A DNA stretch of 64,000 nucleotides, from NCBI RefSeq assembly GCF_000344805.1, contig NC_020453.1, positions 7,668,001-7,732,000 of the forward strand, in the 5' to 3' direction. Of the stretch, positions 29,099 to 45,851 are shown in pieces. This DNA is from Bradyrhizobium oligotrophicum S58. GTDB lineage: Bacteria; Pseudomonadota; Alphaproteobacteria; Rhizobiales; Xanthobacteraceae. Positions within the stretch are counted from its first letter, which is position 1, and each line of letters opens with the position of its first letter. Below the pieces are notes generated by a model, which saw nothing but the letters and a program-made list of their open reading frames with translations, ran no database searches and was not told where the DNA came from. A program made the translations under genes and the position numbers.

Positions 29099-29358
29099 TG
29101 GACGGACTCCTCTCACCCGTGCCCCGCGCCCAGCTGCGAGACATTCGCAATTGCCGGACCATCATCTGCAACTAAGTGAAAAGTCTGGCGGCGCCGGAAC
29201 CATCTCGGGGCAGCCGCGCCATGGTTTGGATGCGGCATGGCGGCCCCGCCATGCTCCTGCCGCGCTGGTCACGCGCGATGAATGGAGGCAATCTGCCGCG
29301 GGCCTTCGCCCGCCATCCCGCCACACATTCAGCAGCTCCACCGAATCGAGAGACAGTC

Positions 29359-30312
29359 ATGAAGATGCGTCCGCTCGGCCGTTCCGGCCTCCTCGTTCCG
29401 CCCATCTGCTTCGGCTGCAACGTGTTCGGCTGGACCGTGGACGAGGCGGCCTCGTTCAGACTGCTCGACAAGGTGCTGGACGCGGGGCTCAGCTTCCTCG
29501 ACACCGCCGACGTCTATTCGCGCTGGGTACCGAGCCACACGGGCGGCGAGTCCGAGACCATCATCGGCAAATGGATGAAGCTGCGCGGCAACCGCGACAA
29601 GATCATTCTGGCCACCAAGGTCGGCATGGACATGGGCGACGGCAAGGTCGGGCTGAAGGCCGATTACATCGCCCGCGCGGTGGAGGACTCGCTGCGGCGG
29701 CTGCAGACCGAAATGATCGATCTCTATCAGTCGCACAAGGACGACGAGACCACGCCGCAGGAGGAGACGCTGGCGGCGTATGACAGACTGATCAAGGCCG
29801 GCAAGGTGCGCGTCATCGGCGCCTCGAACTTCTCGGCCGAACGGCTGCAGGCCGCGCTCGACATCGCCAAGGCCAATGGCCTGCCGCGCTATGAGAGCCT
29901 GCAACCGGAATACAGCCTTGCCGAGCGCGCGTCCTATGAGGGCGCGCTGCAGCGGGTGTGCGAGCAGAACGAGGTCGGCGTCATCACCTTCTTCTCGCTC
30001 GCCGCGGGCTTCCTCACCGGCAAGTACCGCTCGGAGGCCGACTACGGCAAGAGCCCGCGCGGCGCGCGCAGCGTGCCGAAATACATGAACGCGCGCGGCC
30101 TGCGCATCCTCGCCGCGCTGGACGCGGTCGCGAACGAAACCGGCGCACAGCCGGCGTCGATCGCGCTGGCCTGGCTGCTGGCCAAGCCGTCGGTGACCGC
30201 GCCGATCGCGAGCGCCACCAGGCCGGAGCAGGTCGACACGCTGGTCGCGGCAACGCAGCTCACGCTGACGAAGGACCAGGTCGCGCGGCTCGATGCCGCC
30301 AGCGCGAACTAA
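29359..30312 (+). CDS. aldo/keto reductase
   Basis: 317 residues from ATG 29359. The frame is the AKR (beta/alpha)8 barrel: MRPLGRSGLLVPPICFGCN, SFLDTADVYS (catalytic Asp and Tyr), ILATKVGMD (Lys), DLYQSHKDD (His), then VRVIGASNFSAERL and a C-terminal APIASATRPEQV that binds NADPH. The tetrad Asp-Tyr-Lys-His is complete. It resembles the YghZ/AKR11-14 group. The substrate is unknown. A 15-bp tandem repeat covers its stop codon. Confidence 0.92.
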   Translation: MKMRPLGRSGLLVPPICFGCNVFGWTVDEAASFRLLDKVLDAGLSFLDTADVYSRWVPSHTGGESETIIGKWMKLRGNRDKIILATKVGMDMGDGKVGLKADYIARAVEDSLRRLQTEMIDLYQSHKDDETTPQEETLAAYDRLIKAGKVRVIGASNFSAERLQAALDIAKANGLPRYESLQPEYSLAERASYEGALQRVCEQNEVGVITFFSLAAGFLTGKYRSEADYGKSPRGARSVPKYMNARGLRILAALDAVANETGAQPASIALAWLLAKPSVTAPIASATRPEQVDTLVAATQLTLTKDQVARLDAASAN

Positions 30313-30338
30313 CAACATCCTTGCTAACAACATCCTTG
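30309..30338. repeat. tandem 15-bp duplication at a stop codon
   Basis: CTAACAACATCCTTG occurs twice back to back (30309-30323 and 30324-30338). The first copy includes the TAA of the aldo/keto reductase, so the duplication left the protein unchanged. Confidence 0.8.
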
Positions 30339-30341
30339 GCG

Positions 30342-30375
30342 GTCATTCCGGGCGCAGGTGCGCGCCCGGAATGAC
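30342..30375. terminator. long perfect hairpin downstream of the aldo/keto reductase
   Basis: A 14-bp perfect stem GTCATTCCGGGCGC/GCGCCCGGAATGAC closes a 6-nt loop. It sits 30 bases behind the stop codon. No T-run follows, so it could be a REP-type palindrome that also stops or stabilises the transcript. Confidence 0.6.
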
Positions 30376-30571
30376 GCGCAGCCAATCCCGCGAAAGCTGC
30401 GTCCTCGCGGTGATACAACATCGACGCGCGCGCACCGCATTTCCAGCACAGGCGTGGAGCCGGTCAGGCCATTTTGAAGCTTCTTGGGCATCGCCACGGC
30501 GTGGCCAAAATTCAGCCCGGATCGAATTGCTAAGTGCACTGCCAAATTAGAATGAATCGAGGAAGCGTTCG

Positions 30572-31732
30572 GTGAATCGTGTCGCGCGCGTAACTGTTGG
30601 CGCATTCGTCGTTGCCATCGTATCATCATCTCTCCTGGCGCTGACCGGCAGCGTCCGAGCCCAGCAGCAGCGTGCGCCCGTGGCCGGAGCCCCCGTCGGC
30701 ACCCTGCCCGATCGCGAGTCGCTCAATTCCGGCACCGTGACCGTCATCACCGCACCGATCGGCGGCCCGATGTCGGTGATGGGCTCGGACATGGCGGCGG
30801 TGCTCGACGAAGGCGAAAGCCTGCGCGTGCTGCCGATCCTCGGCAAGGGCTCGGCGCAGAACCTCGTCGACATCATCATGTTGAAGAACATCGACATGGG
30901 CTTCGTCGCCACCGATGCGCTGGAATTCGTCAAGACGGAATACAACATTCCGGACATCGCCCAGCGCGTGCGCTACATCGCCCAGCTGTTCCACAACGAC
31001 GTCCACATCGTCGCGCGGCGCGAGATCCGCTCGCTGCAGGATCTCAACGGCAAGCGCGTGTTCGCCGAGCGCTCGATCGGCCTGCCCGCGGCGCGGACGA
31101 TCTTCCGGCGGCTCGGCATCCAGGCCGACATCGATTCGCAGACCGATCCGACCGGCGGCCTGCAGAAGCTGATCGACGGCCAGGGCGATGCCTGGATCGC
31201 CTCGGTGTCCAAGGATGCACCGATCATCAAGGGCATCAAGAACGATGGCGGCCGGCTGCATCTGCTGGCCGTCCCCTACGACCACGCGCTGCAGGACATC
31301 TATCTGCCGTCGTCGTTCTCGTCCGAGGAATATCCGAACCTGGTGCCGCCAGGCACCAGGGTCGACGCGGTCGCGGCCTCCACCGTGCTGATGGTCTACA
31401 ATTGGCCGGAGAACAGCGAGCGCTATCGCCGCACGGCGCGGTTCGTCGATGCGTTGTTCGGCAAGATCCAGGTGCTGCAGTCGCCGCCGCGGCATCCGAA
31501 ATGGCGCGACACCGTGCTGTCGGCGCCGGTGCAGGGCCTGGTCCGCTTCAAGGCCGCGCAAGAATGGCTCGACGGCGCCCGCGCCATGCAGTCGCCGGCG
31601 CAGGACGGCAACCCGGCGGAATTCCGCAAGTTTCTCGACGAGCGCAAGGCGCAGGCGCGGATGTCGCCGGACGAGGCGGCGAGGCTCTACAGCGACTTCC
31701 TCAAATGGCAGCGGAGCAAGGAGCCGCGCTGA
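30572..31732 (+). CDS. TAXI-family TRAP transporter solute-binding protein (orphan)
   Basis: 386 residues from GTG 30572, with GAGGAAG upstream. A signal peptide ends near residue 30 (LLALTGSVRAQ). The TAXI-type binding fold is suggested by GTVTVITAPIGGPMSVMGSD, DIIMLKNIDMGFVATDA, LQDLNGKRVFAERSIGLPAA and GLQKLIDGQGDAWIA. TAXI proteins bring substrates such as glutamate or other acids to a TRAP membrane pair, but no TRAP membrane gene lies in this window. The N-terminus before the fold is Gln/Ala/Pro-rich. Confidence 0.82.
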   Translation: MNRVARVTVGAFVVAIVSSSLLALTGSVRAQQQRAPVAGAPVGTLPDRESLNSGTVTVITAPIGGPMSVMGSDMAAVLDEGESLRVLPILGKGSAQNLVDIIMLKNIDMGFVATDALEFVKTEYNIPDIAQRVRYIAQLFHNDVHIVARREIRSLQDLNGKRVFAERSIGLPAARTIFRRLGIQADIDSQTDPTGGLQKLIDGQGDAWIASVSKDAPIIKGIKNDGGRLHLLAVPYDHALQDIYLPSSFSSEEYPNLVPPGTRVDAVAASTVLMVYNWPENSERYRRTARFVDALFGKIQVLQSPPRHPKWRDTVLSAPVQGLVRFKAAQEWLDGARAMQSPAQDGNPAEFRKFLDERKAQARMSPDEAARLYSDFLKWQRSKEPR

Positions 31733-31839
31733 GACGGCGGCGACCTTCGGCGTCAGAGCGTCCACGCTCACAGGCTATTAGTCGCAGTGGTGGCGTTGAA
31801 CACGTCGCCGCGCCTTACCAAAACGTGCAGAATAACCGA

Positions 31840-31938
31840 GCACAACCGCTGTAGCCGCGCGGCAACATCTCGAACATGTCTTGTTGTTGCGTAGTATTTC
31901 CGAAAGCGCACGCTGCATTTCAGATGTTACGGTTCCCG
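31840..31938 (+). other. 99-nt repeated element, copy A (candidate structured leader)
   Basis: This segment aligns without gaps to 41299-41397 with about 70 of 99 positions identical by hand count, and the identity is blockwise: GCACAACC, GGCAACAT, AACATGT, GAAAGCGC and CAGATGTTACGGTT. AACATC (31864-31869) is complementary to GATGTT (31923-31928) with the same 59-nt spacing in both copies. The end of the element forms the hairpin GTTCCC-GCCA-GGGAAC (31932-31947). It ends 35 bases before the autotransporter start. No known riboswitch family is recognised. Confidence 0.6.
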
Positions 31939-31973
31939 CCAGGGAACAGTGACTGCGTAGTTGGGGCGTGGAA

Positions 31974-32372
31974 ATGCAAGTGCAAGTTGGGCAGGTGGTT
32001 CGTGCGTCATCCGAACGCGGCACACATCGTCGCCGGCGCTGCTGGGAGAGCAGCGTGTCCGCGCTGGCTCTCGGGATCGCGGTATTGGCGCTCGGCACCG
32101 GCGCGGCCCATGCCGACTGTACGCCGGCCGCCGCCGACGGCGTGACCGCGACCTGTTCCGGCCCCACGACGGGTCAGGGCGCTGGCGCGCCCGGAACGAA
32201 CACCAGCACCTTCGGCTACGGCACCGGCATCGAGACGGCGATCGCCGTCAACGTTGCAGCCGGAGCCACGGTGACCGGCTCGGATGCGGGCATCAACATC
32301 CATGACGGAAGCATCATCAATGCCGGAGCCATCACCGGCATCGGGTGGAATGGCTCCAGGGCTACACCCTGA
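31974..32372 (+). pseudogene. autotransporter 5' part (signal and first repeats), frameshifted
   Basis: From ATG 31974 (MQVQVGQVVRASSERGTHRR) this frame gives a long signal peptide of the autotransporter type: a charged extension followed by SVSALALGIAVLALGTGAAHA, then a passenger start with NVAAGATVTGSDAGINIHDG. It ends at a TGA at 32370 after SIINAGAITGIGWNGSRATP. The same repeat style resumes in another frame at 32345, so this is most likely the first part of the next entry, separated by a one-base deletion in the GGG at 32343-32345 (four G would restore the frame). Confidence 0.72.
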
Positions 32373-34615
32373 CCATCTCGAATGCAGCCGGTGCCACCAT
32401 CACGGGACACAACAACGCCATCGAGGGCTATTCATCCTTCATCATCGTCAATTCCGGCACCATTTCCGGCGCAGCAGGCTTTGTCAGTCCTTTTGGTTTG
32501 GGGACGATCACGAACCTCGCTGGAGGTGTCATCAGCGGCACGAATCTCGGCATCGGCGGCGGCAACGGCGTCCTCGCGGTTTTCAATTCGGGCACGATCA
32601 GCAGCCCAGGAGGGGGCGGTGTCTTCCTCGGCAGCAACTCGCTGATCTACAATGACGGCACGATCAGCGGCGGCGGCTATGGCATTTCGGCCTCCGGTTC
32701 CTCGATCATCAATGCCGGCACGATCAATGGCGGGATCAGCTTCTTTGGCCCCGGCAACACGCTGACGCTCGCACCGGGCTCGGTCATCAACGGCCTCGTC
32801 GGCGGAAGTGCCAACAACACGCTGCAGCTCGGCGGCAGCGGCAGCTCGACCTTCGACATCTCGCAGCTCGGCGCGGCCGCGCAGTATCGCGACTTCTCCA
32901 CCTTCGACAAGGTCGGCTCCTCGGCCTGGACCCTGACCGGCACCAGCACCTACGCCGGCGCCGTCAACGTCAATGCCGGCACCTTGCGCATCGACGGCAA
33001 TTTTGCTTCCGCCAGCGGCCTCACCGTGAACACAGGCGGCACGCTGAGCGGCATCGGCACCGTCGGCGGCACGACCGTCGCGAGCGGCGGCATCCTGGCG
33101 CCCGGCAACGGCGTCGCCGGCACTTCGCTCGGCGTCTCCGGCAATCTCGCCTTCCAGTCCGGCGCGATCTACCTGGTGCAGGTCTCGCCCACGACCGCGT
33201 CGACGACGAATGTCAGCGGCACCGCCACGCTCGGCGGCGCGACCGTTAACATCGCCTTCGCGCCGGGCAGCTATGTCGCCAAGACCTACACCATCCTCAC
33301 CGCGAGCGGCGGCGTCTCCGGCAGTTTCGCGCCGACCGTCACCACCACGGGCACGGCCACGCTCACGAGGTCGCTCAGCTATGACGCCAACAACGTCTAT
33401 CTGAACGTCGCGCTGGGCTATGGCGGCATCCCCGGCCTGAACGGCAATCAGCGCGCCGCCGGCGACGCCCTGACCAACGCCTTCAATGCCGGCGGCGGCA
33501 TTTCCGCGGCCTACGCATCGCTGACGCCGGCCGGCCTGTCGCAGGCCGCCGGCCAGCTCGGCACGTCGTCGCAGCAGACGACGTTCGGCGCGATGGCGCA
33601 GTTCATGGGTCTGTTGACCGATCCGGCGCAGCGCGGCGGCACGATGGGCGCTCAAGGCGGCGCTACGGGCTATGCCGAGGACGACGACCGCGCCAGCGCC
33701 TCTGCGGCACGTCGGGGCGGCGACGCCTTCGCGATGGCCACCAAGGCGCCGGCCGCGCCGTTCGCGTCGCGCTGGAGCATGTGGGCCGCCGGCTTCGGCG
33801 GGTCGCAGACCACGGACGGCAATGCGGCCGCGGGCTCGACCAACACGGCGAGCAACCTCTACGGCACGGCCGTCGGCGCCGACTACCAGTTCTCTCCGAA
33901 TACGCTGGCCGGCTTCGCGCTCGCGGGCGGCGGCACCAGCTTCAACGTCACCGGCCAGGGCTGGGGCCGCTCCGACCTGTTCCAGGCCGGCGCCTATCTG
34001 CGTCACGTGCAAGGCCCGGCCTATGTCTCCGCGACGCTCGCCTATGGCTGGCAGTCGGTCACGACCGACCGCATCGTCACCGTTGCCGGCAGCGATCATC
34101 TGAGCGCCGCGTTCAACGCCAACGCCTATTCCGGCCGCATCGAGGCCGGCACGCGCTTCGTCTCGCCCTGGATCGGCGGCATCGGCTTCACGCCTTATGC
34201 CGCGGCCCAGGTGACGGCCCTGGATCTGCCGGGCTATGCCGAGCGCACAGTCTCTGGCAGCGGCGCCTTCGCGCTCGCCTATGCGGCCCGGACATCGACC
34301 GACACGCGCACCGAGCTCGGCCTGCGCAGCGACAAATCCTATGCCATGCAGGACGCCGTGCTGACCCTGCGCGGCCGCGCAGCGTGGGCGCACGACTTCA
34401 ACCCGAACCGCGCGGTCACGGCGACGTTCCAGGCGCTGCCGGCCGCGAGCTTCGTCGTCAACGGCGCGGCGCAGGCCAGCGAATCCGCACTGACCACCGC
34501 CTCGGCCGAGCTGAAATGGACGAACGGCTGGGCGGCGGCCGCGACCTTCGAGGGCGAGTTCTCGAACGTCACGCGCTCCTACGCCGGCAAGGGCGTCGTC
34601 CGCTACGCCTGGTAA
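32345..34615 (+). CDS. autotransporter passenger and beta-barrel (3' part of frameshifted gene)
   Basis: 756 residues. The passenger (about 1-400) is built of repeats such as NSGTISGAAG and NAGTINGG, typical of a beta-helix, plus VNVNAGTLRIDGNF and LSGIGTVGGTTVASGG. The C-terminal barrel (about 475-756, FASRWSMWAAGFGGSQTTDG onward) ends in YAW, with the C-terminal aromatic expected for outer-membrane insertion. The frame has no signal peptide of its own; that is in the preceding frame. If the frameshift is real, the protein would not be exported. It is convergent with the histidine kinase gene. Confidence 0.82.
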   Translation: MEWLQGYTLTISNAAGATITGHNNAIEGYSSFIIVNSGTISGAAGFVSPFGLGTITNLAGGVISGTNLGIGGGNGVLAVFNSGTISSPGGGGVFLGSNSLIYNDGTISGGGYGISASGSSIINAGTINGGISFFGPGNTLTLAPGSVINGLVGGSANNTLQLGGSGSSTFDISQLGAAAQYRDFSTFDKVGSSAWTLTGTSTYAGAVNVNAGTLRIDGNFASASGLTVNTGGTLSGIGTVGGTTVASGGILAPGNGVAGTSLGVSGNLAFQSGAIYLVQVSPTTASTTNVSGTATLGGATVNIAFAPGSYVAKTYTILTASGGVSGSFAPTVTTTGTATLTRSLSYDANNVYLNVALGYGGIPGLNGNQRAAGDALTNAFNAGGGISAAYASLTPAGLSQAAGQLGTSSQQTTFGAMAQFMGLLTDPAQRGGTMGAQGGATGYAEDDDRASASAARRGGDAFAMATKAPAAPFASRWSMWAAGFGGSQTTDGNAAAGSTNTASNLYGTAVGADYQFSPNTLAGFALAGGGTSFNVTGQGWGRSDLFQAGAYLRHVQGPAYVSATLAYGWQSVTTDRIVTVAGSDHLSAAFNANAYSGRIEAGTRFVSPWIGGIGFTPYAAAQVTALDLPGYAERTVSGSGAFALAYAARTSTDTRTELGLRSDKSYAMQDAVLTLRGRAAWAHDFNPNRAVTATFQALPAASFVVNGAAQASESALTTASAELKWTNGWAAAATFEGEFSNVTRSYAGKGVVRYAW

Positions 34616-34846
34616 GGCCGCTCGCCGTCGATCGTCGTCGCAATTCCGGTCTCGATCCCGGCGGGCGCCATAAGCGGATGCGCGAGATGACACAGCTGAA
34701 CTCTCTCATCATCGACCGCTTCGGTGCGGCTACCGAGATGCCGAATCCGATCAACCAGTCCGGAGCAAGCGCTGCTGGCTTGGCTCTGCGCCGAGCTACG
34801 AGCGTCAGGCTACGATGCGATCGAGCCTGATGCTGACGCTTGGTCG

Positions 34847-36292
34847 TCAGGAGCGCGCCAGCGGCCCGGCCTTTTCGACCGTGCGCACGGCCGGCCAAGC
34901 CGCCCCTCTTGCAACCGGCGCGCCTTGCTGAGGCGCCGCAGGCGCGAAGCTCAGCCGGACCGTCGTGCCGCCGCCGGGCGTCTCACGGAGCTCGACGCGG
35001 CCATGATGCGTGGCCATGACCTGCGAAACGATGGAAAGCCCGAGCCCCATGCCTTCGCCGCGGGCCTGCCCGCGCTCGAACGGCTGCAGCAGGCGCTCGG
35101 GCTGATCCGACTGCAGGCCCGGCCCGGAATCGATCACGCTCAGGCTTGCTGCCGCGTCGACGTCGACGAGAATGGGACCACCGGCGCCAGCATGCGTGAC
35201 GGCGTTCCTGATCAGGTTCGAGAGCGCGACCGCGAGGGCAGGCTCCGAGCCCTGGATCCACACCGGAGCGTCGGATCCGGCAAAGCCGAGCTCCAGCCCG
35301 GCCTGCAGCGCCATCGGCACGTGCTCGGCCGTAACGCGCCGCGCCAGCGCGACCAGATCGATCTCGGTCAGCTCGACCGGCTCCATCGAAATCCGCGCCA
35401 GTTGCAGGAGCATGGTGACGATCGATGACAGCTTCTGATTCTCGGCAACGAGCCTCGCGCGCAGTCCCGCATCCTGGACCGCTTCGAGCGCGGTCCGCGC
35501 ATTGGTCAGCGGGGTCCGCAGCTCATGGGCGGCGTTGGACAGGAAGTTGCGCTGCGCCTCGGCGGCATGGTCGATGCGCGACAATGCGCGGTTGAACGCC
35601 GCGATCAGCGGCAGCAATTCGGCCGGCGCATCGCCCTCGGGCAGCCGGCGGCCATCCGGCACGCCGTCGATCATCTCGGCCGCGCTCGCCACCGTGCGAA
35701 CCGGGCGCGCGATCAGCGTCGGCACGAACACCAGGGCCGCGAACACCGTCGCCAGCAGCACCAGGATGATGGGAAGCGCAACGATCGTCGCATCGGTCAG
35801 CGTGCCGAGCATCAGTTGCGTCGACGTATAGGCCACGCCGCCGGTCTCGATCAGGACCTCGCCGACCGACGTATTCCGGACGGCGGTCATGCGCTTCAGA
35901 CGAAGGGTCTCGCCGTCGATCGCATAAGCCAGGAAGCTGGTGCCGTCCTGTGCTGCCGCAGGCTTCTGCGGGCGCCATTTCGGGAGTGGCCCGAAACTGA
36001 CCTCGCCGCTCTTGTCCGACACGACATACCAGAACGTCGGAAAATCCTGGATGATCCTGTCGAGACGGGGAGTCGGCTTGACGAGCAGTCGACCGCTGGC
36101 ATCGCGGGAAACCGCCTCCTTCAACGCATCGGCGACATCGGCGGCGCCCCACGTGCCGTCATCGTCGCCACCGAAGCGGATCAGCAGGGCGGCAGCGCAG
36201 ATCAGCATGATGGTGCTGACGACCCCGATCAACGTCGCGGAGAGCAAGGTGATGGAGCGACGGATACGGGTGAGCTTCTGCCACTTGCGCAT
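34847..36292 (-). CDS. sensor histidine kinase
   Basis: 481 residues. Two membrane helices (about 17-39 and 170-192) flank a periplasmic sensor domain of about 130 residues. HAMP (about 193-245) leads to the phosphoacceptor box FLSNAAHELRTPLTNARTAL, with His256. The ATPase has the N box NLIRNAVTHA, the G1 box SVIDSGPGLQ and the G2 box GMGLGLSIVSQVMA. The response regulator gene lies 3 bases upstream, so they form one operon. The stimulus is unknown. The C-terminal 25 residues are non-conserved. Confidence 0.93.
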   Translation of the reverse strand: MRKWQKLTRIRRSITLLSATLIGVVSTIMLICAAALLIRFGGDDDGTWGAADVADALKEAVSRDASGRLLVKPTPRLDRIIQDFPTFWYVVSDKSGEVSFGPLPKWRPQKPAAAQDGTSFLAYAIDGETLRLKRMTAVRNTSVGEVLIETGGVAYTSTQLMLGTLTDATIVALPIILVLLATVFAALVFVPTLIARPVRTVASAAEMIDGVPDGRRLPEGDAPAELLPLIAAFNRALSRIDHAAEAQRNFLSNAAHELRTPLTNARTALEAVQDAGLRARLVAENQKLSSIVTMLLQLARISMEPVELTEIDLVALARRVTAEHVPMALQAGLELGFAGSDAPVWIQGSEPALAVALSNLIRNAVTHAGAGGPILVDVDAAASLSVIDSGPGLQSDQPERLLQPFERGQARGEGMGLGLSIVSQVMATHHGRVELRETPGGGTTVRLSFAPAAPQQGAPVARGAAWPAVRTVEKAGPLARS

Positions 36293-36295
36293 CCG

Positions 36296-36985
36296 TCACT
36301 CGCCACTCAGGAGATAGCCGAGGCCGCGCACCGGCCTGATCGCGGCCTTGCAATTGGCTTCGCGCAGGCGGCGGCGCAGCCGGGAGACATGCGCCTCGAT
36401 CGCATTCGACTGGATCTCGTCCTCGAAGCCATAGGCTGCGGATTCGAGCGTCTCGCGCAGGACCACCCGCCCGCTGCGGCGGACCAGCGCCTCGAGGATC
36501 GCCAACTCGCGCCGCGGCACGACGATGGGAGCCTGATCGACGCAGACCGCGCGATTGACGACGTCGTAGCTCAGATTGGCAATGGAAACCATCGCGCCGC
36601 GGTCGAGAAACAGGCGGCGCAGCACCGCCCTCGCCCGCGCGACCAGTTCGATCGGCTCGAATGGCTTGGCGACGTAATCGTCCGCGCCCTCATCCAGCGC
36701 ACGTGCGATGTCGACGGGATCGTCGAGCGCGGTCAGCACGACGGTCGCCGGACTCGGCTGTTGCTGCCGCAGGTGCGGCAACAGCGCCAGCCCGTCACCG
36801 TCCGGAAGGCCGCGGTCGATCACCACGAGCTCGAAACTGCGCACGGCGATCGCAGCCCGCGCCTCGTCGAGGGTGGTGACGATATCCGACGAGCCGAAGG
36901 CCGTCGCGAGCGCGTCCCGCAGCCAGATCCCCAGCTGGGGGTCATCCTCAACGACCAGAACGCGCACGCCATTCTCCCGCAACAT
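36296..36985 (-). CDS. OmpR/PhoB-family response regulator
   Basis: 229 residues from ATG 36985; a GTG two codons upstream is possible. The receiver domain has the acidic pair in LVVEDDPQLG (Asp14, Asp15), the phosphoacceptor Asp57 in VVIDRGLPDGDG and the Lys of DYVAKPFEP. The C-terminal winged helix (about 130-229) carries NAIEAHVSRLRRRLREANCK. It is cotranscribed with the kinase and divergent from the GT39-like gene across about 550 bp. Confidence 0.93.
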   Translation of the reverse strand: MLRENGVRVLVVEDDPQLGIWLRDALATAFGSSDIVTTLDEARAAIAVRSFELVVIDRGLPDGDGLALLPHLRQQQPSPATVVLTALDDPVDIARALDEGADDYVAKPFEPIELVARARAVLRRLFLDRGAMVSIANLSYDVVNRAVCVDQAPIVVPRRELAILEALVRRSGRVVLRETLESAAYGFEDEIQSNAIEAHVSRLRRRLREANCKAAIRPVRGLGYLLSGE

Positions 36986-37538
36986 CGACACCTGCGTGTT
37001 CCTATCATTACGGACGGATTACAATAGGATTACGTCGACCGCGCTCTGGTACCGCTATTTCAAGCGACCGACCGAAAATTGAATTGTTCTGCCCCGTGCC
37101 GCCCGGGCGCAACTTTTCTTCCCGTGTGCTCCATGCGGCGCCGCCGACGGGTGCAACGCCTCCTTTCGTGTCCCATCCCGACAGTCTCCGGTTGTAGAAC
37201 GAACAGCTTCTCAGCCGGCGCGATTGCAGTCGTATGACGGACGATGCCGCTGTGAACCGATTTGCAATCGGCCAGCGCGTACGTGATGAAATGTCAGCTT
37301 TTCGTAATCGTCTCGACCGAGACTCACGCGTTCAACAATGGCCGAGGATTCGCCCGTATGGAGCCTGACGCATGATCGACCGGACACGTCGGGCGGTCCC
37401 GATCCCATCATCAGTTGCGGCGCGATCTTCGTCGTCCCGCCAATTCCTTGACTGCCACACGCCTCGGCCTACGTCGCACGCGTGCTGCCGACGCCTCGCG
37501 GCCGCTGACCGAACGTCGCGTCCGGCGCACCATCTTTG
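36986..37538. other. 553-bp divergent intergenic region
   Basis: It separates the response regulator from the GT39-like gene and should hold both promoters. I see no clear gene, hairpin or recognised operator. The part next to the regulator (about 37000-37300) is lower in GC than the surroundings, as expected for promoter DNA. Confidence 0.4.
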
Positions 37539-39107
37539 ATGCACACCGACATGCTCCATGACTTTGCGTTCTCGGCGCTCGCCGAACGGTCGGACAGCCA
37601 GCCGGCGGCGTGGCGCCGTCCATTCCTGCGCTGGTTGGACGGCATCGAGGCCGGCTGGGCCATACCATTGCTGCTGGCGTGCTTCGTGATCGTCTGGACG
37701 ATCTATCTGTCGATCGCCTATGCCGGCGCCGGCCTGCATCCCGACGTTCTGGAGACGTGGACATTCGGACGACAGTTCGGCTGGGGCTACAACAAGCATC
37801 CGCCACTGATGGGCTGGGTCGCCGGTGGCTGGACCGCCGTATTCCCCTTGTCCGACTGGTCATTTCACCTGATGGCGATGACCAACGCGGCGCTGGCGCT
37901 GTGGTTCGTCGACCTCGTTTCGCGCCGCTTCGTGACCGGGGACAAGCGGGTGATCGTGCTGCTGCTGCTGATGTTGACGCCCGCCTATCAGTTTCACGCG
38001 CAGCGCTTCAACGCGAACTCGGTGCAGCTGGCGACATGGCCGCTGGCCACCTACTGCTTCCTGCGCGCGTTCGAAACGCGAGCGATGCTCTGGTCGATCG
38101 CAGCAGGCCTCACGACCGCGCTCGCTGTGCTGGGCAAGTACTATTCGATCTTTCTGGTGATGAGCTTCGCATTCGCGGCAATGGCGCATCCGCAGCGCCG
38201 TGCCTACTTCACGTCGGCTTCGCCATGGATCTCGACGGCGGCCGGGCTAGCCGCGCTGTCGATGCATCTCGACTGGCTCGTCGCCACCGATGCAGCGCCC
38301 ATCCAGCACGCGCTGATGCACGCCAAATCCAACCTGTGCACGTCCCTGCGGGATTCCGTGTTCTTCCTGCTGGGGCTCGTCGCCGCGATGGCGGTGGCGG
38401 CCGTGACCTGGATCATCGTTGCCGGGGCCAGGATCAGGCAATTCCCCGCAGAGATGGCTGCGCTGAACGATGGCCTCCGGCTGCTGGCGTACGTCGCCGT
38501 CGGTTCGGTCGGACTGCCCGTCGTCAACGCGCTGATCATGGGAACCGACCTGCCATCCTTGTGGGCGCTTCAAGGACTGTTCTTGTTCGTGGTCGTCGTC
38601 GTATGCGGCGCGAGCTATCGGATCGAACGATTCTACACCGTCAACCTGGCGATGCTGACGGCCGGAGTCGCCATCGCAGCCGCGATCATCGCCGCTCCAC
38701 TGCACGCTCTCTATCGCAACAATCACGGCTATGAAGAAGGCCGCACCTTCTATCAGCAGACGGCGCAGGAAGCGACGCGGCAATGGCGGGAGTTGACCGG
38801 CAGGCCCCTCGCGCATGTCGGCGGCACCGAAAGCCTTGCGCTTGCGACCACCTTCTATAGCGACGATCACCCTTCCTACGGCCTCCCCACCACAGCTCGT
38901 CAACCGATTTCGGACAGCCCGGCCGAGGCGAATGACGACCGCGGCTGGGTCTCGCTGTGCTTCCGGGACCAGACGGATTGCATCGCAGCCGCGGAATCGG
39001 CCGCTCGCCCAGGGGACTACGTCAAACGCGAGTTCGTGGTGCAGGCCCGACTGTTCGGATGGACCGGATGCACGCGGACGGTGGTCGCATTCCTGGTGAC
39101 ACGCTAA
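37539..39107 (+). CDS. GT39/ArnT-like membrane glycosyltransferase
   Basis: 522 residues with about 10-12 membrane helices. The N-terminal catalytic loop has the acidic motif HPDVLETW and GWGYNKHPPLMGW; the KHPPL motif is typical of the dolichyl-phosphate-mannose/ArnT (PMT_2) group. Only the last 130 residues are soluble (about 390-522). ATG 37539 is used, and ATG 37551 is an alternative. It probably moves a sugar from a polyprenyl-phosphate carrier on the periplasmic side. The divergent two-component system could control it. Acceptor unknown. Confidence 0.85.
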   Translation: MHTDMLHDFAFSALAERSDSQPAAWRRPFLRWLDGIEAGWAIPLLLACFVIVWTIYLSIAYAGAGLHPDVLETWTFGRQFGWGYNKHPPLMGWVAGGWTAVFPLSDWSFHLMAMTNAALALWFVDLVSRRFVTGDKRVIVLLLLMLTPAYQFHAQRFNANSVQLATWPLATYCFLRAFETRAMLWSIAAGLTTALAVLGKYYSIFLVMSFAFAAMAHPQRRAYFTSASPWISTAAGLAALSMHLDWLVATDAAPIQHALMHAKSNLCTSLRDSVFFLLGLVAAMAVAAVTWIIVAGARIRQFPAEMAALNDGLRLLAYVAVGSVGLPVVNALIMGTDLPSLWALQGLFLFVVVVVCGASYRIERFYTVNLAMLTAGVAIAAAIIAAPLHALYRNNHGYEEGRTFYQQTAQEATRQWRELTGRPLAHVGGTESLALATTFYSDDHPSYGLPTTARQPISDSPAEANDDRGWVSLCFRDQTDCIAAAESAARPGDYVKREFVVQARLFGWTGCTRTVVAFLVTR

Positions 39108-39187
39108 GGCGGCGCGCAGCCCGACCGCACCAACCATCGTTCGACGGCTTCGAGTCAGCCGGCAGTCGAACCGCCGACGGCGCTCCG

Positions 39188-39808
39188 CTACTGACCCTGC
39201 CGCTGCGCGTCCGTGTTTCCGCGCCAGCGGGACCAGATGCGTGCCTGCGCAATCTTCGAGGCATCGATGGTTTTGCCGTTGCCGACGTCTTGCGATCGGA
39301 TAACGCCGGCGATGGCCACCTCGACGACGGCGCCGCCGATCTGCGCCGCGCGCCGTCCCTCGATCGCAAGACGACCGTCCGGCAACACCTGCGTGATCAC
39401 GGCGGCCACGCTCATGCGCCTCGGGTCTCGGCGCGACGCCGTCAATTGGCCTGCGGCGCTGCCCGGCCCCGCGCTTCTCGGCTCTCCGGCTCCAACCGTC
39501 TGCTGTTTGGGCGCGCTGGAGACAATCATGCGCTCGTCGACATTGACGTCAACCGTCAGGATGTCGCCAATCTGCGCTGAGCGCCGCGTCCTGGAAACGA
39601 CGCGGGATTCGCTTCGCTGCTGCGATGGAGGATGCGCCGGAACCGGCGCGATCAGTGAGGCCGCCGGAGCCGGCTCCGTGTCCGGACGAGGCGCAGCCTC
39701 ACTGGACGGCGGCACTTCCGAAGACGATGGACCGTCGAGTTGAGCGCAGCCGCCTGCCAATCCGAAGGCACCGACGGCCATGAGCGTGCGTGCGACGCTG
39801 CGAACCAT
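39188..39808 (-). CDS. FlgH-like lipoprotein (orphan flagellar L-ring-type)
   Basis: 206 residues from ATG 39808. The lipobox LAGGC (Cys about 21) is at the end of a short signal. A Pro/Ser-rich linker is followed by the FlgH-type domain: AQIGDILTVDVNVDERM and LPDGRLAIEGRRAAQIGGAV, then VIRSQDVGNGKTIDASKIAQARI. These match the FlgH pattern, but the conserved C-terminal end is truncated or altered. No other flagellar gene is near, so it may be a paralogue of another outer-membrane ring. Confidence 0.72.
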   Translation of the reverse strand: MVRSVARTLMAVGAFGLAGGCAQLDGPSSSEVPPSSEAAPRPDTEPAPAASLIAPVPAHPPSQQRSESRVVSRTRRSAQIGDILTVDVNVDERMIVSSAPKQQTVGAGEPRSAGPGSAAGQLTASRRDPRRMSVAAVITQVLPDGRLAIEGRRAAQIGGAVVEVAIAGVIRSQDVGNGKTIDASKIAQARIWSRWRGNTDAQRQGQ

Positions 39809-40168
39809 CACGCGCGGCCTCGCGCAGAGATGGACCGATCGATCAGGAGAGAGCGAGCACCACCCGCTTCACCGCTCATGACTGCCCGCAACTGGTAGCA
39901 CAGGACTGCTCGCGCAGGACGGAAGGCGTTCGATCGCGAGCGAGCGATGCGTACAGCTTTGCGCTCATTTGGCTAATCAGCACGTCATGGGACTTTCAAG
40001 AAGCGCTTCAAATTGCTCGATCATGGGCATCCGGCATAGTGGATGCGGACATGTCGAGGCGACGCAGGACGCATCGGTCACGTCGCCGCATCCGGGCGCC
40101 GCACGCTCTGGATCGAAGGCAAGGCCCCGCATTGGCGGGACCTTGCGCATTGCGGATACGTGAAGGCT

Positions 40169-40507
40169 TCAGTCGCCGTCCCAAGCTCCGTCCGAATAGC
40201 CGTCTCTGTAGCCGGACAGATAGCCACTGCCATAGCCATCACCATGGCTGCCGCCATATCCGGCGTCATACTCGTAGACACGGTAACGACGATAGACGAC
40301 CGGAGGCGGCGAATAGTCCTCGTAGCTGTAGACATAGCTGGGAGCGGAACGGGCGGTCGCCGCAGACCCGAGAAGGGCTCCGATCGCCAGACCTCCCACC
40401 ACGCCGGCTGCCACCGCCGCTCCGCGGTTGCCGCCGGCGCTGGCCGGCGTCGTGATCGTGGCTGCCATGGTCGATGCCACGATCAGAAGCGCGCAAATCC
40501 GTTTCAT
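40169..40507 (-). CDS. small exported Gly/Tyr-rich protein
   Basis: 112 residues with a signal peptide MKRICALLIVASTMAATITT cleaved after ASA, a glycine-zipper-like segment (AAVAAGVVGGLAIGALLGSA, about 30-49) and a Tyr/Gly-rich tail. AAGGAGAACAG precedes the start. Short exported glycine-zipper proteins of this shape are common in Bradyrhizobiaceae and are thought to sit in the outer membrane or periplasm. Function unknown. Confidence 0.75.
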   Translation of the reverse strand: MKRICALLIVASTMAATITTPASAGGNRGAAVAAGVVGGLAIGALLGSAATARSAPSYVYSYEDYSPPPVVYRRYRVYEYDAGYGGSHGDGYGSGYLSGYRDGYSDGAWDGD

Positions 40508-41298
40508 TCTGTTCTCCTTGCATTCGGCTCAGCCGTCGCGGCAGGAGAGTCGCGGTTGCGGCTTACGGCATCATTACAGATCGCGGCACCACGACCTCGT
40601 CATCAGAACGCCTCTGAACCCAGTTCGGTCCGCCGGCTGCCGTGCGTATGTCCGAACAACGCGATGAACGTGCGACCGCAGACGTCGTTACGGAGAAGAG
40701 ACACCAGGTACAAAGAGGAATTTGAGATAGAGCGAGGCGAAGCATTGCAGGCCGTTCGGGGGCGTGGGGCTGGGTCACAACCCGAACGGCCTGCTCACTG
40801 GACTCCGACGACGTTCGAAGCCATGCGGTGCCAGCTTTTCTTGGAGAGGTGCCGCAGGTGGGACGGAGCCAACCTGATCAGGTCGAGCTTTCAGTTCTGC
40901 GACACCTCTCCAATGTCATTCCGGTCAAGCGCCACATCGTGGGGTGGAGAGTCATCGCTGCCGACACGCGCGGTCGATTGCGAAACTGATGTGACGTCGA
41001 CCGCAAGGACAGTTCGAAAACTAGGTTCTCGCCCTTACCGCAGGATTACATCGCGCGTTCGATCGGGCACTCTCCGGGCCCGGACTACACCAGTGCAACC
41101 GACAGGAGCGAGGATCCGTCTACATCTGGCCCGGATCTCGCTCGCGCCGCATGTACCCGGGCATCTCTCCCATGGCTGATCGGGAAAAATCCAATGCGGG
41201 TGGTGTGTATGAACCCGGCTCTCGTGACGGATCACCCTGCCATCTCGAGGCTGCATCGGGACATCGCGCAGCGGGCGACCGATACATGCACGGACGAA

Positions 41299-41397
41299 GC
41301 ACAACCAGTGTTGTTACGTGGCAACATCCGCAACATGTTTCGATGCCGCGCGACTTTTCTGAAAGCGCGTACTCCGGTCCAGATGTTACGGTTTCCG
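41299..41397 (+). other. 99-nt repeated element, copy B
   Basis: Gapless counterpart of 31840-31938. AACATC (41323-41328) and GATGTT (41382-41387) are again complementary, with the same spacing. An internal segment can form CGCG(A)CTTT/AAAGCGCG. The element is followed by the hairpin at 41395-41421 at the same relative position as in copy A. The nearest downstream gene is the M48-like protease, 208 bases away. Confidence 0.6.
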
Positions 41398-41421
41398 ATG
41401 AGAACACCGACGTCTCATCGG
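41395..41421 (+). other. hairpin following element copy B
   Basis: Perfect 9-bp stem CCGATGAGA/TCTCATCGG with a 9-nt loop. Copy A has a hairpin of different sequence at the equivalent place (31932-31947), so the pairing but not the bases is kept. Confidence 0.65.
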
Positions 41422-41604
41422 AACGTGGTCCTCCGGAACAACAAATGTCGTACCCTTCGTGACCGGTTGCGCGGCCTGCCGACGACGATCGGTCAGCCGC
41501 GATTGACCCAGCTGATCAATGCTGAACAGAACTTCCAAATGTCTTGGATCGACAGGGATTGATCAGTTGATCGTCCTCGACGAGCCGTTGTTCGCGGAAC
41601 CAAA

Positions 41605-42684
41605 ATGAAACGGTTCGCCCTGGCCTGTATCCTGCAGCTCGGCCGCTACGCGGTTCTGCCGATCGTCGCGCTTGCCTGGGGGTTGTTCGTCCTCTGGCTC
41701 ATGCTACTGGACGACTACACGAGGGCAGCACTCGTCACGGCTCCCCTCATGTTCTGCCTGGTGACGGCGGCAGTTGCGCTGGCACTTGGGATCCTGTTGC
41801 TGCCGACGCGAGCAGATCGGAGCAATGCCCTCGACGAGACCATGGCCCCCCATCTCTGGCGGATCTGGCGGGAGCTCGACCCCGCCTTTGCCAAGCGCAA
41901 TCGCACGCCGCGGACCGATGCCGCGCTCAATGCCTCGATCGGCGAAACGCGCGCTTATGCCGGTATATTCGGGCAGCACGTCACCATGACCGTCGGACTG
42001 CCGTTGCTGATGATTTTCGACGAGCGCGCCGTCCGCGCGGTCATCGCGCATGAGGTCGCGCATGCCGAACTGCAGCACATCTCGGGCGGCGCCAACCTGC
42101 TGGACTTCCTGCGCGCGTGCGAGAATGTTCTCCACTACGCAAACCCCGACCGCACCGTCACCGGACGCCTCGCCGAACCGTTGCTGCGTTCGCTGCTGAT
42201 CTGGCTGAACAGCGAATACAGCACGCTGTCGCGGCGGGACGAGCTGGCCGCCGACAGTCGTGCCGCACAGTGGATCGGACAGGCTGAGATGGCGCGCGCC
42301 CTGACTCTGTTGGCCGGCTGCACGGTGCGTCTGCGCGAGCTGGTGTTTGCTCCCTTGGAAAGCGACATGCTCGGAGCGATCCGCGTACCGGCCACGCCGC
42401 TGCAGCGGATGTCGGCACAGCGCGCCGAGATCCGCGCCGATGACGCGCTTGCCGCCGCGGCGGCCACGGCAATGACGGAGGAAAAAGACGACCCGGATTC
42501 GACGCACCCGCCGTTCAGCAAGCGGCTTGCCAATCTCGGCTACACCGCAATTCCCGCGATCGATCCGGTCGAGACGCCGGCCATCGAGCGGCTGCTGGTG
42601 CCGGAGGCCGCGCGCGAGCTATCAGCGCGGCTCGACGCCGAATGGCGCAAAATGGCACAGACCTGGGTGCAGGTGGGGATGTGA
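41605..42684 (+). CDS. M48-family-like membrane metalloprotease
   Basis: 359 residues. Two N-terminal membrane helices (about 13-35 and 42-67) precede the zinc site VIAHEVAHAELQH (His149, Glu150, His153), with a likely third ligand in RRDELAADSRAAQW (Glu of DELAAD, about 214). This layout is that of HtpX/Ste24-type M48 proteases. The C-terminal part (about 290-359) has STHPPFSKRLANLG, the familiar HPP...R motif of M48. The start ATG 41605 follows 208 bases after the repeated element. Substrate unknown. Confidence 0.85.
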   Translation: MKRFALACILQLGRYAVLPIVALAWGLFVLWLMLLDDYTRAALVTAPLMFCLVTAAVALALGILLLPTRADRSNALDETMAPHLWRIWRELDPAFAKRNRTPRTDAALNASIGETRAYAGIFGQHVTMTVGLPLLMIFDERAVRAVIAHEVAHAELQHISGGANLLDFLRACENVLHYANPDRTVTGRLAEPLLRSLLIWLNSEYSTLSRRDELAADSRAAQWIGQAEMARALTLLAGCTVRLRELVFAPLESDMLGAIRVPATPLQRMSAQRAEIRADDALAAAAATAMTEEKDDPDSTHPPFSKRLANLGYTAIPAIDPVETPAIERLLVPEAARELSARLDAEWRKMAQTWVQVGM

Positions 42685-42747
42685 TCGCAGCCTGCCGCGC
42701 TCCCGCGCACCACTGGAACGCATCTCGTTCTGTGCTATAATTGCCTC

Positions 42748-43326
42748 GTGCACGATCCCCGGGAGTCTTCGGTGCAGCGCGCGCAGGTCAAGGTCGACGT
42801 CCAGGCCCACGAGCCGGACTGGACGCCTGCGCGGCAGGAGCTGTGGCAGCGCATCGTCGCGCATGACTTCGAGCCCGATACGCCGCTCAACTTCACGCAA
42901 CGCCTCGCCCGCGACCATGGCTGGAGCCTCGACGAGGCCCGCGTTGCCATCGAGGCCTATCGCCGCTTCTGCTTCCTCGCGATGGTCTCGCCAACGCCGG
43001 TCACCCCGAGCGAGGCCGTCGACGAGGTCTGGCACCAGCATCTGATCTATTCGCGCGACTATTGGACCGTCTGGTGCGGCGAGCGGCTGCAGGCGCCGCT
43101 GCATCATGATCCCACTCCGGGCGGCGCTGAGGCGCAGATGACCTATCGCCGGCAATATGCCGAGACCCTGGCGCTGCACGAACGCTTCTTCGGACCACCC
43201 AGCCCCGATCTGTGGCCTGCAACACATCTGCGCTTCGCCGGCCCGCGTTATCACGTCACGGACCGCAATATCTGGCTCATCCTGCCGCGGCCTCGCGCTT
43301 GGCTGCGGCGACTGTTTGGGAGATGA
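42748..43326 (+). CDS. glycine-rich domain-containing (GRDP/DUF1399-like) protein
   Basis: 192 residues from GTG 42748 (a later in-frame GTG at 42772 is possible). The recognisable segment is AVDEVWHQHLIYSRDYWTVW (about 89-108), followed by MTYRRQYAETLALHERFFG and a basic C-terminus. It lies immediately upstream of a TIGR04222-type membrane protein (4-base gap), a pairing I associate with uncharacterised bacterial modules. A zinc or other ligand site in WHQHL is possible. Function unknown. Confidence 0.72.
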   Translation: MHDPRESSVQRAQVKVDVQAHEPDWTPARQELWQRIVAHDFEPDTPLNFTQRLARDHGWSLDEARVAIEAYRRFCFLAMVSPTPVTPSEAVDEVWHQHLIYSRDYWTVWCGERLQAPLHHDPTPGGAEAQMTYRRQYAETLALHERFFGPPSPDLWPATHLRFAGPRYHVTDRNIWLILPRPRAWLRRLFGR

Positions 43327-43330
43327 ACAC

Positions 43331-44149
43331 TTGCCGCTCAATCCATTCGACTGGACGGCCGGCCCCTTTTTGCTGCTCTATGTCGCCTGTGCCGGCATTC
43401 TCTTCTGGCTTGCCTTTCAGGCGCGGCGGATGATCGGTCCCGCCGCAGCCACCATCCATCCGCTGACCGAGCTTGAGCTGGCCTATCTGTCCGGCGGCGA
43501 GCGCCGGCTCGGTGACGCGGTGCTGCTCGGCTTCGCCGCCAGCAAGGCCGCAACTTTCACGCCGCGCGATCACAGGATCACGGTCTCGGACCAGACGCCG
43601 CTGGCCGCCCTGATCGATCGGCCGCCGCCGCTCAAGCTGCATCCCGAGATGACGCGGACGGAATTCCAGACGGCACTGGCGCCGCTTGCCCTCCAGCTCC
43701 AGGATCGCCTGAGGGCCATCGGCTATTATCCGACTGATCCGCAGATGAAAGCCTTCCGCAGCGCGGTACTGCCATTCGTCGGCGCCCTGCTGCTGTTCGG
43801 CGCCATCAAGGCCGTCGTCGGCACCGAGCGGCATCACCCGGTCGGCTTCCTGCTCATCCTGCTCGCCGCGACCTGCCTGGCGGCCTATGTGCTGGCGAAG
43901 CCACCGACGCGGACGCGCGCCGGCGTCGACGCGCTCCGCAGCTACCAGGCATCCCACGCCCGCGTTGCCCGAGCGCCACGCGAGCATGAATTGCTGCTGG
44001 CGGTGGCGCTGTCGGGCGCCGTGGTGTTGTCCGGCACCGCTTATGCCTCGGTGCTGGCAACCTCCAAGGCACTGAGCAGTAGTGGGGGAGGATGCGGCGG
44101 CGGAGGCTGCGGGGGCGGTGGTGGCGGCGGATGCGGTGGCTGCAGCTGA
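43331..44149 (+). CDS. TIGR04222-like membrane protein with Gly/Cys-rich tail
   Basis: 272 residues from TTG 43331, with GGGAG upstream. Hydrophobic helices are at about 10-30, 145-165 and 170-190, with another near the end. A soluble region of about 110 residues lies between the first two. The C-terminus is striking: SSSGGGCGGGGCGGGGGGGC, then GGCS. Such Gly/Cys tails mark this family. The function is unknown; metal or redox chemistry at the Cys tail is speculation. It is coupled to the preceding GRDP-like gene. Confidence 0.75.
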   Translation: MPLNPFDWTAGPFLLLYVACAGILFWLAFQARRMIGPAAATIHPLTELELAYLSGGERRLGDAVLLGFAASKAATFTPRDHRITVSDQTPLAALIDRPPPLKLHPEMTRTEFQTALAPLALQLQDRLRAIGYYPTDPQMKAFRSAVLPFVGALLLFGAIKAVVGTERHHPVGFLLILLAATCLAAYVLAKPPTRTRAGVDALRSYQASHARVARAPREHELLLAVALSGAVVLSGTAYASVLATSKALSSSGGGCGGGGCGGGGGGGCGGCS

Positions 44150-44301
44150 CAATCACCGGTGCGCGCCGTTGCCGTCGGCATCGAAGTCTTCCCTATGAGG
44201 GCGCAAGGCCGCATCATGGCCATTGCTAAATCTCGATCTCGCCACCGACTCGTTCAGAGAATGTCTCATGCAGGCGGTCAACCAGATCACTGGAGCTCGG
44301 C

Positions 44302-44637
44302 GTGTTCTGGCGTGACGTTTTCCTCACCCTCCTGGTTGCGCTGATCGTCTTGAGCTTTCTCCGTCCACTGCGGAGCTCACGGCCCCGTGACGACTCGACG
44401 CTGATGGAGAACGGCGAGGGATATCTGCACCACCATTTGCCTGAACTGATCAGCGAGATCGAGGGCGCCGGCGACATCCGGCTTGCTGCGATCGGCATCA
44501 ACCACCGCGTCGAGCGCTACTACAAGCGAAGCATCACGATCGACTCCCCGGAGCAATTGGAAGAGGCTGTCGTTCAGATCATCGGGCAGCTATTGGCTGC
44601 ACCACACTGTTTTGATTATCAGAATAATCCAATTTAG
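44302..44637 (+). CDS. hypothetical protein with N-terminal membrane helix
   Basis: 111 residues from GTG 44302, with GGAG upstream. One membrane helix (about 5-22, VFLTLLVALIVLSFLRPL) is followed by a soluble helical part of about 85 residues (LISEIEGAGDIRLAAIGINH). No family is recognised. It follows the TIGR04222-like gene after about 150 bases on the same strand. Confidence 0.55.
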   Translation: MFWRDVFLTLLVALIVLSFLRPLRSSRPRDDSTLMENGEGYLHHHLPELISEIEGAGDIRLAAIGINHRVERYYKRSITIDSPEQLEEAVVQIIGQLLAAPHCFDYQNNPI

Positions 44638-44665
44638 GCGCGCCCGCAATCGGCCCCCGCAAATC

Positions 44666-45733
44666 TCAGCTGTTCTGCACCAGCACCTCGCGCAGCGCGT
44701 CCGTCAGGCGCGCGAGCTCGGCTTCCGAGCCGATGGTGATGCGAAGGTAGTCGGCGATGCGCTCCGCCGTGAAGTGGCGGACGAGCACCGCGCGCTCGCG
44801 CAGCGCGGCGGCCAGCGCCTGGCCAGAGCGGTCCGGATGGCGCGCAAAGACGAAATTGGCGCTGGACGGCAGCACCTCGAAGCCGAGCCCGGCCAGCGCG
44901 GCGGTGAGGTCGGCGCGGTTCTTGATGATGACCGCGCGCGCCTGCTGGAAATACGCGTCGTCCTCGAGCGAGGCGATTGCGCCGGCCTGGGCCGGGCGGC
45001 CGAGCGGATAGGAATTGAAGCTGTCCTTGACCCGGGTCAGGCCCGCGATGAGTCCGGCATCGCCGATCGCATAGCCGACGCGCAGGCCGGCGAGCGCGCG
45101 CGACTTCGACATCGTCTGCACGACCAGGAGATTGGGGTAGTCGCGGATCAGCGGGATCGCCGTCTCGGCGCCGAAATCGACATAGGCCTCGTCGACCACG
45201 ACAGCCGCGTCGCTGCGCGCCGACACCAGCCGCGCGATCTCCGCGCGCGACAGCGCGATTCCCGTCGGCGCATTCGGATTGGCCACGATCACCGGCCCGG
45301 CACGGCCGAGATAGTCGTCGACGCGCACGCGCATCCCGGCGTCGAGCGGAACCGTCGTGTAGTCGATTCCCAGGAGCCGGCAGTAGACCGGATAGAAGCT
45401 GTAGGTCACGTCGGGGAACAGCAGCGGCGACGACTGCTTCAGCAGCGCCGCGAAGGTGTGCGCGAGCACCTCGTCGGAGCCGTTGCCGACGAAAACCTGG
45501 TCGGGCGCGACCTCGTGATAGTCGGCCAGCGCCTCGCGCAGGCGCGTCGCCTGCGGGTCGGGATAAAGGCGCAGCGTGTCGGCGGCCGTCGCCCGGATGG
45601 CCTCGATGGCCTTCGGCGATGGTCCGAACGGGCTCTCATTGGTGTTGAGCTTGACGAGGCCCGGTATCTGCGGCTGTTCGCCGGGCACGTAGGGCGACAG
45701 CCCCCGGGCGAGCTCCGACCAGAAACGGCTCAA
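44666..45733 (-). CDS. hisC: histidinol-phosphate aminotransferase
   Basis: 355 residues. A TTG start at 45733 is chosen because AGGAGG lies 6 bases upstream and the product then begins [20 protein letters not shown], the normal HisC N-terminus. Fold-type I aminotransferase motifs are present: [67 protein letters not shown] (Schiff-base Lys) and [11 protein letters not shown]. It catalyses histidinol-phosphate formation, or an aromatic amino-acid transamination, since HisC paralogues also do that. No other his gene is in the window. Confidence 0.9.
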
Positions 45734-45826
45734 GATCGTCCTCCTGCGGACCCGTGACGCGCCCAACGGCCGATCGACCGGAGGCGACCGAAGCGCAAAT
45801 TGAACGTGTGACGTTGCATCCGTAAA

Positions 45827-45851
45827 TGGCGCGCCCGACACGATTCGAACG
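45827..45851 (-). other. tRNA-Arg-like 3' end fragment
   Basis: The reverse strand reads CGTTCGAATCGTGTCGGGCG then CGCCA, which is very close to the T-loop and acceptor 3' end of bacterial tRNA-Arg, including an encoded CCA. The rest of a tRNA (5' acceptor strand, D arm) is not found upstream, and the T stem is broken. It could be a leftover attachment-site fragment of an integrative element. No integrase is present in the window. Confidence 0.4.

Follow-up and report, generated by a model that had tools for sequence, protein, structure and literature searches.

An element of about 160 nucleotides (nt) that occurs twice in a 64,000-nt stretch of Bradyrhizobium oligotrophicum S58 (NC_020453.1; referred to below as the window) is, as far as sequence comparison can tell, probably an autotransporter gene's cis-regulatory 5′ region, shared by a small group of Bradyrhizobium-type species and comprising an upstream operator, a promoter and an untranslated leader. 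We reach this reading because the element stands before all five close orthologs found, moves with the gene and keeps the outer bases of a dyad invariant, and because this dyad recurs upstream of many held-out paralogs. A gene's control region is an ordinary kind of thing; the modest extra is a dyad shared by many autotransporter genes, together with an orphan control region. The element provides a concrete, testable candidate site for the control of Bradyrhizobium autotransporter genes, a topic on which a full-text literature search turned up nothing by title.

Two copies in the window and four in related genomes

A first-pass annotation of the window had described copy A (31840-31938) and copy B (41299-41397) as an ungapped pair with about 70 of 99 positions identical and with the identity concentrated in blocks. 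Counting gave exactly 70 of 99, and block-wise conservation at the nucleotide level was confirmed. The runner-up match of copy A inside the window reached 46 positions on the + strand and 45 on the − strand (mean 25.3, standard deviation 4.4), and mismatch-free occurrences of CAGATGTTACGGTT and GGCAACATCNNNAACATGT within the window are confined to A and B. The observation of two like stretches is real and was slightly under-measured: the likeness extends over ~160 nt. A profile built without B matches B at 41262-41405 with 57.6 bits (E 1.4e-16 among the stretches searched), and the profile made from all six copies described below spans the longer ranges given in Table 1. In the 8.26-Mb genome of the strain (one contig) no convincing third copy was seen, either with copy A at E≤10 or with the profile, for which the single further match had an E of 0.16. 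Additionally, 11 stretches with other autotransporters of this genome were without a significant element match.

A sequence-only model made from A, B and C matched six of 265 genomes of the genus at E≤0.01. Besides the window's own genome these were G146 (copy C), G202 (D), G250 (E) and G161 (F), E and F being a sister pair; the search for further copies proposed with the original observation in this way found the element in four more genomes. The sixth match, in G067, is weak and probably due to chance; it precedes a frame resembling an XRE-type regulator by eye, and no autotransporter was found near it. A family-level scan of 149 genomes gave two further weak matches (G288, G393), also with no autotransporter found nearby. 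When the A-B-C matrix was run over all loci gathered by then, the best non-copy scored 9.4 versus 116-120 for the three copies, and further BLAST matches in the genus genomes (79-96% identity over about 22-47 bases) agreed at no more than 49 of 99 positions and are not copies. A scan of named genomes with CGNGGCAACATCNNNNACATGT returned 72 stretches (a set that may lack records close to the window's genome) and a viral scan with GGCAACATCNNNNACATGT returned 89.

Copies A, C, D, E and F lie directly 5′ of orthologous autotransporters that share one N-terminus. The distance of 35 bases reported between the end of copy A and the autotransporter ATG at 31974 was reproduced, and this ATG is supported by an ortholog. 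The window gene belongs to the PF03797 autotransporters of Bradyrhizobium. Its frame is broken between 32303 and 32372, where two frames overlap; the frames are open there in G146, G161, G250 and G202, and the break could be due to a genuine frameshift or to an error in sequencing. A search with the N-terminus matched 57 of the 265 genomes at E≤1e-8, of which only five contain a close ortholog (identity 66-100% across almost the entire query, E≤1e-43; the best match after these has 8e-26). The element precedes the autotransporter in all five, giving the consistent downstream gene that the annotation had proposed to look for, with copy B as an exception.

These loci belong to one conserved neighbourhood consisting of genes for an aldo-keto reductase, a TAXI-type binding protein, a histidine kinase, a response regulator, a PMT-type transferase, the open reading frame (ORF) at 39188, an M48 peptidase, the ORF at 42748, a TIGR04222 protein and the gene at 44666, some of which are absent or uncovered in individual stretches. 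Within it the autotransporter occupies a different slot in each genome: in the window it stands between the TAXI and kinase genes, in G146 it follows the PMT gene, in G202 it precedes the 44666-type gene, in G250 it comes after TIGR04222 and in G161 it precedes M48. Identity in windows of 150 alignment columns is 0.55-0.97 in the coding sequence (mostly 0.7-0.95) and 0.43-0.62 in the element (0.70-0.88 between E and F), and falls to 0.24-0.40 upstream of the element. Because of the five different slots and this upstream drop in identity, we regard the element as the autotransporter gene's own 5′ region, which travels with the gene. From the earlier interpretation, nucleotide-level constraint, further copies and a consistent downstream gene have stood, and structured RNA, discussed below, has not.

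A dyad shared with other autotransporter genes

The outer bases TGT...ACA of an 18-bp dyad within the element are invariant in all six copies. The site mostly reads TGTnGC-N6-GCMACA, with the variants TGTTGT in B, TGTGAC in D and GCCACA in E and F. There are no compensating changes in the dyad, as expected of a DNA site. In its invariant outer half-sites, its position before a gene, its conservation in blocks and its recurrence before paralogs it resembles the palindromic promoter-operators of dimeric helix-turn-helix regulators. Its spacing, TGT-N12-ACA, is unlike that of lux boxes, E. coli LexA boxes (CTGT-N8-ACAG), CRP sites (TGTGA-N6-TCACA) and NifA sites (TGT-N10-ACA).

Recurrence was assessed with a matrix made from the six sites A-F, the spacer being ignored. 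A shared dyad was first suspected from the initial 25 upstream regions of distant autotransporters, in eight of which the site was matched by at most 2 of 200 shuffles. A held-out set was formed by 37 of the 39 remaining autotransporter matches (G222:C194 and G133:C41, with 434 and 2 bases before the match, respectively, were left out). At p≤0.01 (500 dinucleotide shuffles each), 18 of the 37 held-out paralogs had a site, compared with none for the reversed matrix; at p≤0.05 the numbers were 27 and one. A score of at least 11.5 was reached by 17 of the 37, where 0.72 would be expected from natural windows; among 1386 natural windows of 375 nt, 27 scored as high, 12 of them through the element's own sites. 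Since members of one cluster by 5′ similarity are related, clusters were counted as well. Outside the element's family the median was at least 11.6 in eight of 24 clusters and the maximum in 10, and four of 11 wholly held-out clusters had such a median. The dyad is present in all copies of the element and enriched before the paralogs, where it often reads CTGTnGC-N6-GCnACAG (typical sites are CTGTAGCCAGTTTGCAACAG, CTGTCGCCAATTCGCAACAG and CTGTGGCCGGTACGCCACAG) within 5′ regions that are otherwise unalignable. A separate family of autotransporter 5′ regions (L315, L322, L323, L327, L330, L335) carries a highly regular dyad, CTGTnGCCAnTTnGCAACAG, with GATTCC-like blocks after it.

From conservation, position and recurrence, which were observed directly, we infer a regulator, a promoter and a direction of control. 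A putative dimeric regulator would bind the dyad upstream of the promoter and switch transcription of the autotransporter gene, while the downstream blocks ACATGT, TTTCC and CAGATGATA would provide another contact, the promoter and the leader. A bolder proposal, which we put forward as speculation with rather long odds, is that CTGTnGC-N6-GCnACAG might be the operator of one dedicated, undescribed regulator of surface autotransporters across Bradyrhizobium, orphans such as B acting as decoys or as promoter donors during gene moves within the locus.

Several results weigh against an operator role of the dyad. The median lies below 11.6 in 16 of the 24 clusters, and the largest cluster has seven of its 14 members below this value. 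The dyad was located at −142 to −155 in 15 of the 25 first-seen paralogs, yet between −157 and −140 in only one of 28 held-out ones, a comparison in which starts are uncertain and from which nine of the 37 are missing as having no start by the rule used. Nor is the dyad pattern enriched genome-wide (27 in the window's own genome versus 42 for the control); a near-perfect dyad gave 37 rows versus 50 for the control in the 265 genus genomes; among 22 loci inspected, it lay near autotransporters in four, which all belong to one subfamily. The neighbouring two-component pair was considered as the regulator of the dyad and finds no general support: 12 stretches (15-19 kb each) surrounding other autotransporters gave no relatives of it at E≤1e-10, although 11 of them did match the window's autotransporter.

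The orphan copy B

Copy B ends ~180 bases before an M48-type gene, and no autotransporter was detected near it (tblastn, 1e-5). The slot directly before the M48 gene is occupied in G161 by copy F and its autotransporter. Of the columns invariant in the other five copies, B retains 30 of 37, a smaller share than any other copy (30 of 33 for A, 30 of 31 for C, 30 of 35 for D, and 30 of 32 for each of E and F). It agrees with A at 67 of 96 positions and with C at 65, but with F at only 47, and its history is hence not one of simple orthology by slot. Taken jointly with the control-region explanation, B is likely to be an additional copy that lost its autotransporter or arrived without it. Here a control region occupies the place in which a relative retains the entire gene.

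There is about an even chance that B is moreover the dead remnant of an earlier autotransporter copy in front of M48, its likeness to A then reflecting descent without present function in B. This possibility concerns B alone and is compatible with a control region elsewhere in the family. It is favoured by the arrangement in G161, by the low share of common columns and by the frame at the ATG in the homologous place of B, which is just five codons long. However, B is nearer to A and C than to F and hence not simply the ortholog of F, and the retention of 30 of 37 columns after such divergence could still mean constraint.

RNA structure, mobility and coding potential

The annotation had interpreted the pair as having an RNA or structured DNA function with a conserved fold, based on AACATC/GATGTT pairing at identical spacing and on 3′ hairpins that differ in sequence. 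Both hairpins were recovered, GTTCCC/GGGAAC being found in A and CCGATGAGA/TCTCATCGG read in B, and AACATC/GATGTT is complete (six of six pairs) at equal spacing in the two copies. It is, however, not intact in any other copy (five pairs in C, three each in D and E, two in F), and in A's register the hairpin has six of six pairs in A, five in B, none in C and D, and four in E and F. A conserved fold was no longer supported once the four orthologs had joined the alignment. The pairing that seemed to be kept between two copies mostly disappears with the orthologs added, which corrects a plausible RNA reading.

The consensus fold (RNAalifold) contains 10 pairs in two helices at −3.58 kcal/mol, with a covariation term of +0.09 kcal/mol. 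Helix one is the dyad itself (six pairs, three of them invariant); as an invariant DNA dyad, it speaks for an operator. Helix two is a 4-bp ACGC/GCGT pairing between the block before CAGATG and the leader. In both helices 91.7% of cells are paired, above slid partners, a level that column shuffles also attain. A double change was seen in one of the 10 predicted pairs and in one sequence. In the covariation check that had been proposed, the observed score was equalled or exceeded by 141 of 500 shuffles, a result resting on six sequences of which two are sisters; helices with compensatory changes beyond chance were not found. With a comparison of six sequences, a short leader helix may nonetheless exist.

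A thermometer- or riboswitch-like 5′ leader structure covering the ribosome-binding site of the autotransporter messenger RNA appears unlikely to us. It is best represented by E and F, which fold better than shuffles (z-scores of −3.45 and −2.58) and in which the TTTCC block pairs with the Shine-Dalgarno region in a stem that shows, by eye, a paired change between the two; the 4-bp helix with its double change is also in its favour. The z-scores of A-D are ordinary (−1.25, −1.61, +0.24, −0.85), so that stability above shuffles is confined to the sister pair and does not extend across the family, and the covariation results given above argue against it as well. The native arms did not pair clearly better than swapped ones: permutations at least equal to the own arrangement numbered 22 of 120 for ACDEF, five of 24 for ACDE and 14 of 24 for ACDF, where rows with E need caution as its 5′ arm began one TTTCCC too far upstream. 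The permutation including B (ABCDEF, 39 of 720 at least as good) was not used, the 5′ arm of B having overrun its own 3′ arm. Pairing to the ribosome site was matched by shuffled upstream sequence in 138 (A), 155 (C), 166 (D) and 69 (F) of 200 cases, and in 14 of 200 for E. Sequestration of the ribosome site was not upheld for the family, being suggestive in E and F only.

Rfam, ROSE thermometers included, gave no covariance-model match at gathering scores for the window or the four loci, and none at E≤1 for 31780-32000. The ROSE-type RNA thermometers of Bradyrhizobium are similar in being leaders of ~100 nt before a start codon in the same genus; the element is unlike them in its lack of an Rfam match and of a demonstrated conserved helix over the ribosome site. 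As an observation in its own right, the leaders of E (L287:9838-9979) and F (L288:9612-9752), both on the − strand, are far more stably folded than their shuffles and form a long stem that extends to the ribosome-binding region; they possibly reflect lineage-specific RNA control.

It is quite improbable that A and B are pieces of a transposon or represent a small mobile element such as a miniature inverted-repeat transposable element. Two copies 9.4 kb apart, and an autotransporter that moved together with the element within the locus between species, would be compatible with this, but the own genome contains only two copies instead of many dispersed ones and 259 of the 265 genus genomes are without a match at E≤0.01 (stricter filters lose some weak matches). 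Furthermore, the same gene follows every copy except B, and none of the plasmid records searched with copy A contains most of it.

A small conserved protein or leader peptide is hardly credible: although one frame is open throughout A, B and C, the A/B identities show no third-position bias (24, 25 and 21 of 33 by codon position), in agreement with the earlier claim that constraint acts on nucleotides and not on protein, and E and F are two bases shorter after the TTTCC block, which shifts any frame and, if the alignment is right there, excludes a peptide shared over the whole block. With neither third-position substitutions nor a common frame, the coding reading was rejected.

Features and history of the locus

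Table 1. Positions in the window of the element copies, their dyads and the associated genes.
Feature	Position	Strand	Evidence
Element copy A, predicted 5′ autotransporter control region with promoter and leader	31800..31961	+	Six-copy profile 138 bits, or 96 bits when the model excludes A
Dyad A, TGTAGC-N6-GCAACA, candidate operator	31850..31867		Matrix score 18.6, best in the window
Autotransporter, N-terminal part (signal sequence, passenger start)	31974..32303, frame open to 32372	+	69% identical (88/127) to the N-terminus of the G146 ortholog
Autotransporter, remainder in a different frame (PATR repeat and beta-domain PF03797)	32345..34615	+	PF03797 E 2.7e-46; 80% identical (602/756) to the G146 ortholog
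Sensor histidine kinase of the conserved locus	34847..36292	−	
OmpR/PmrA-like response regulator of the conserved locus	36296..36991	−	
Element copy B, orphan, no autotransporter after it	41261..41424	+	Profile made without B; no autotransporter match nearby (tblastn, 1e-5)
Dyad B, TGTTGT-N6-GCAACA	41309..41326		Matrix score 16.2, ranking second on the window's + strand; B is among the six source sites of the matrix
M48-type peptidase gene after B	41605..42684	+	PF01435 E 1.5e-12; in G161 the same gene follows F and its autotransporter (synteny)

The slot changes across 29176-45841 of the window suggest repeated local movement, or transfer, of the autotransporter gene together with its 5′ region. 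The body of the window's autotransporter is 89% identical to the G250 and G161 versions, the M48 gene merely 65-72%, and element A is nearer to C than to E and F; these discordant similarities point to a mosaic history. Outside this locus, ARAGORN reported an odd transfer RNA-like gene with a four-base anticodon at 8635-8730, which is probably spurious.

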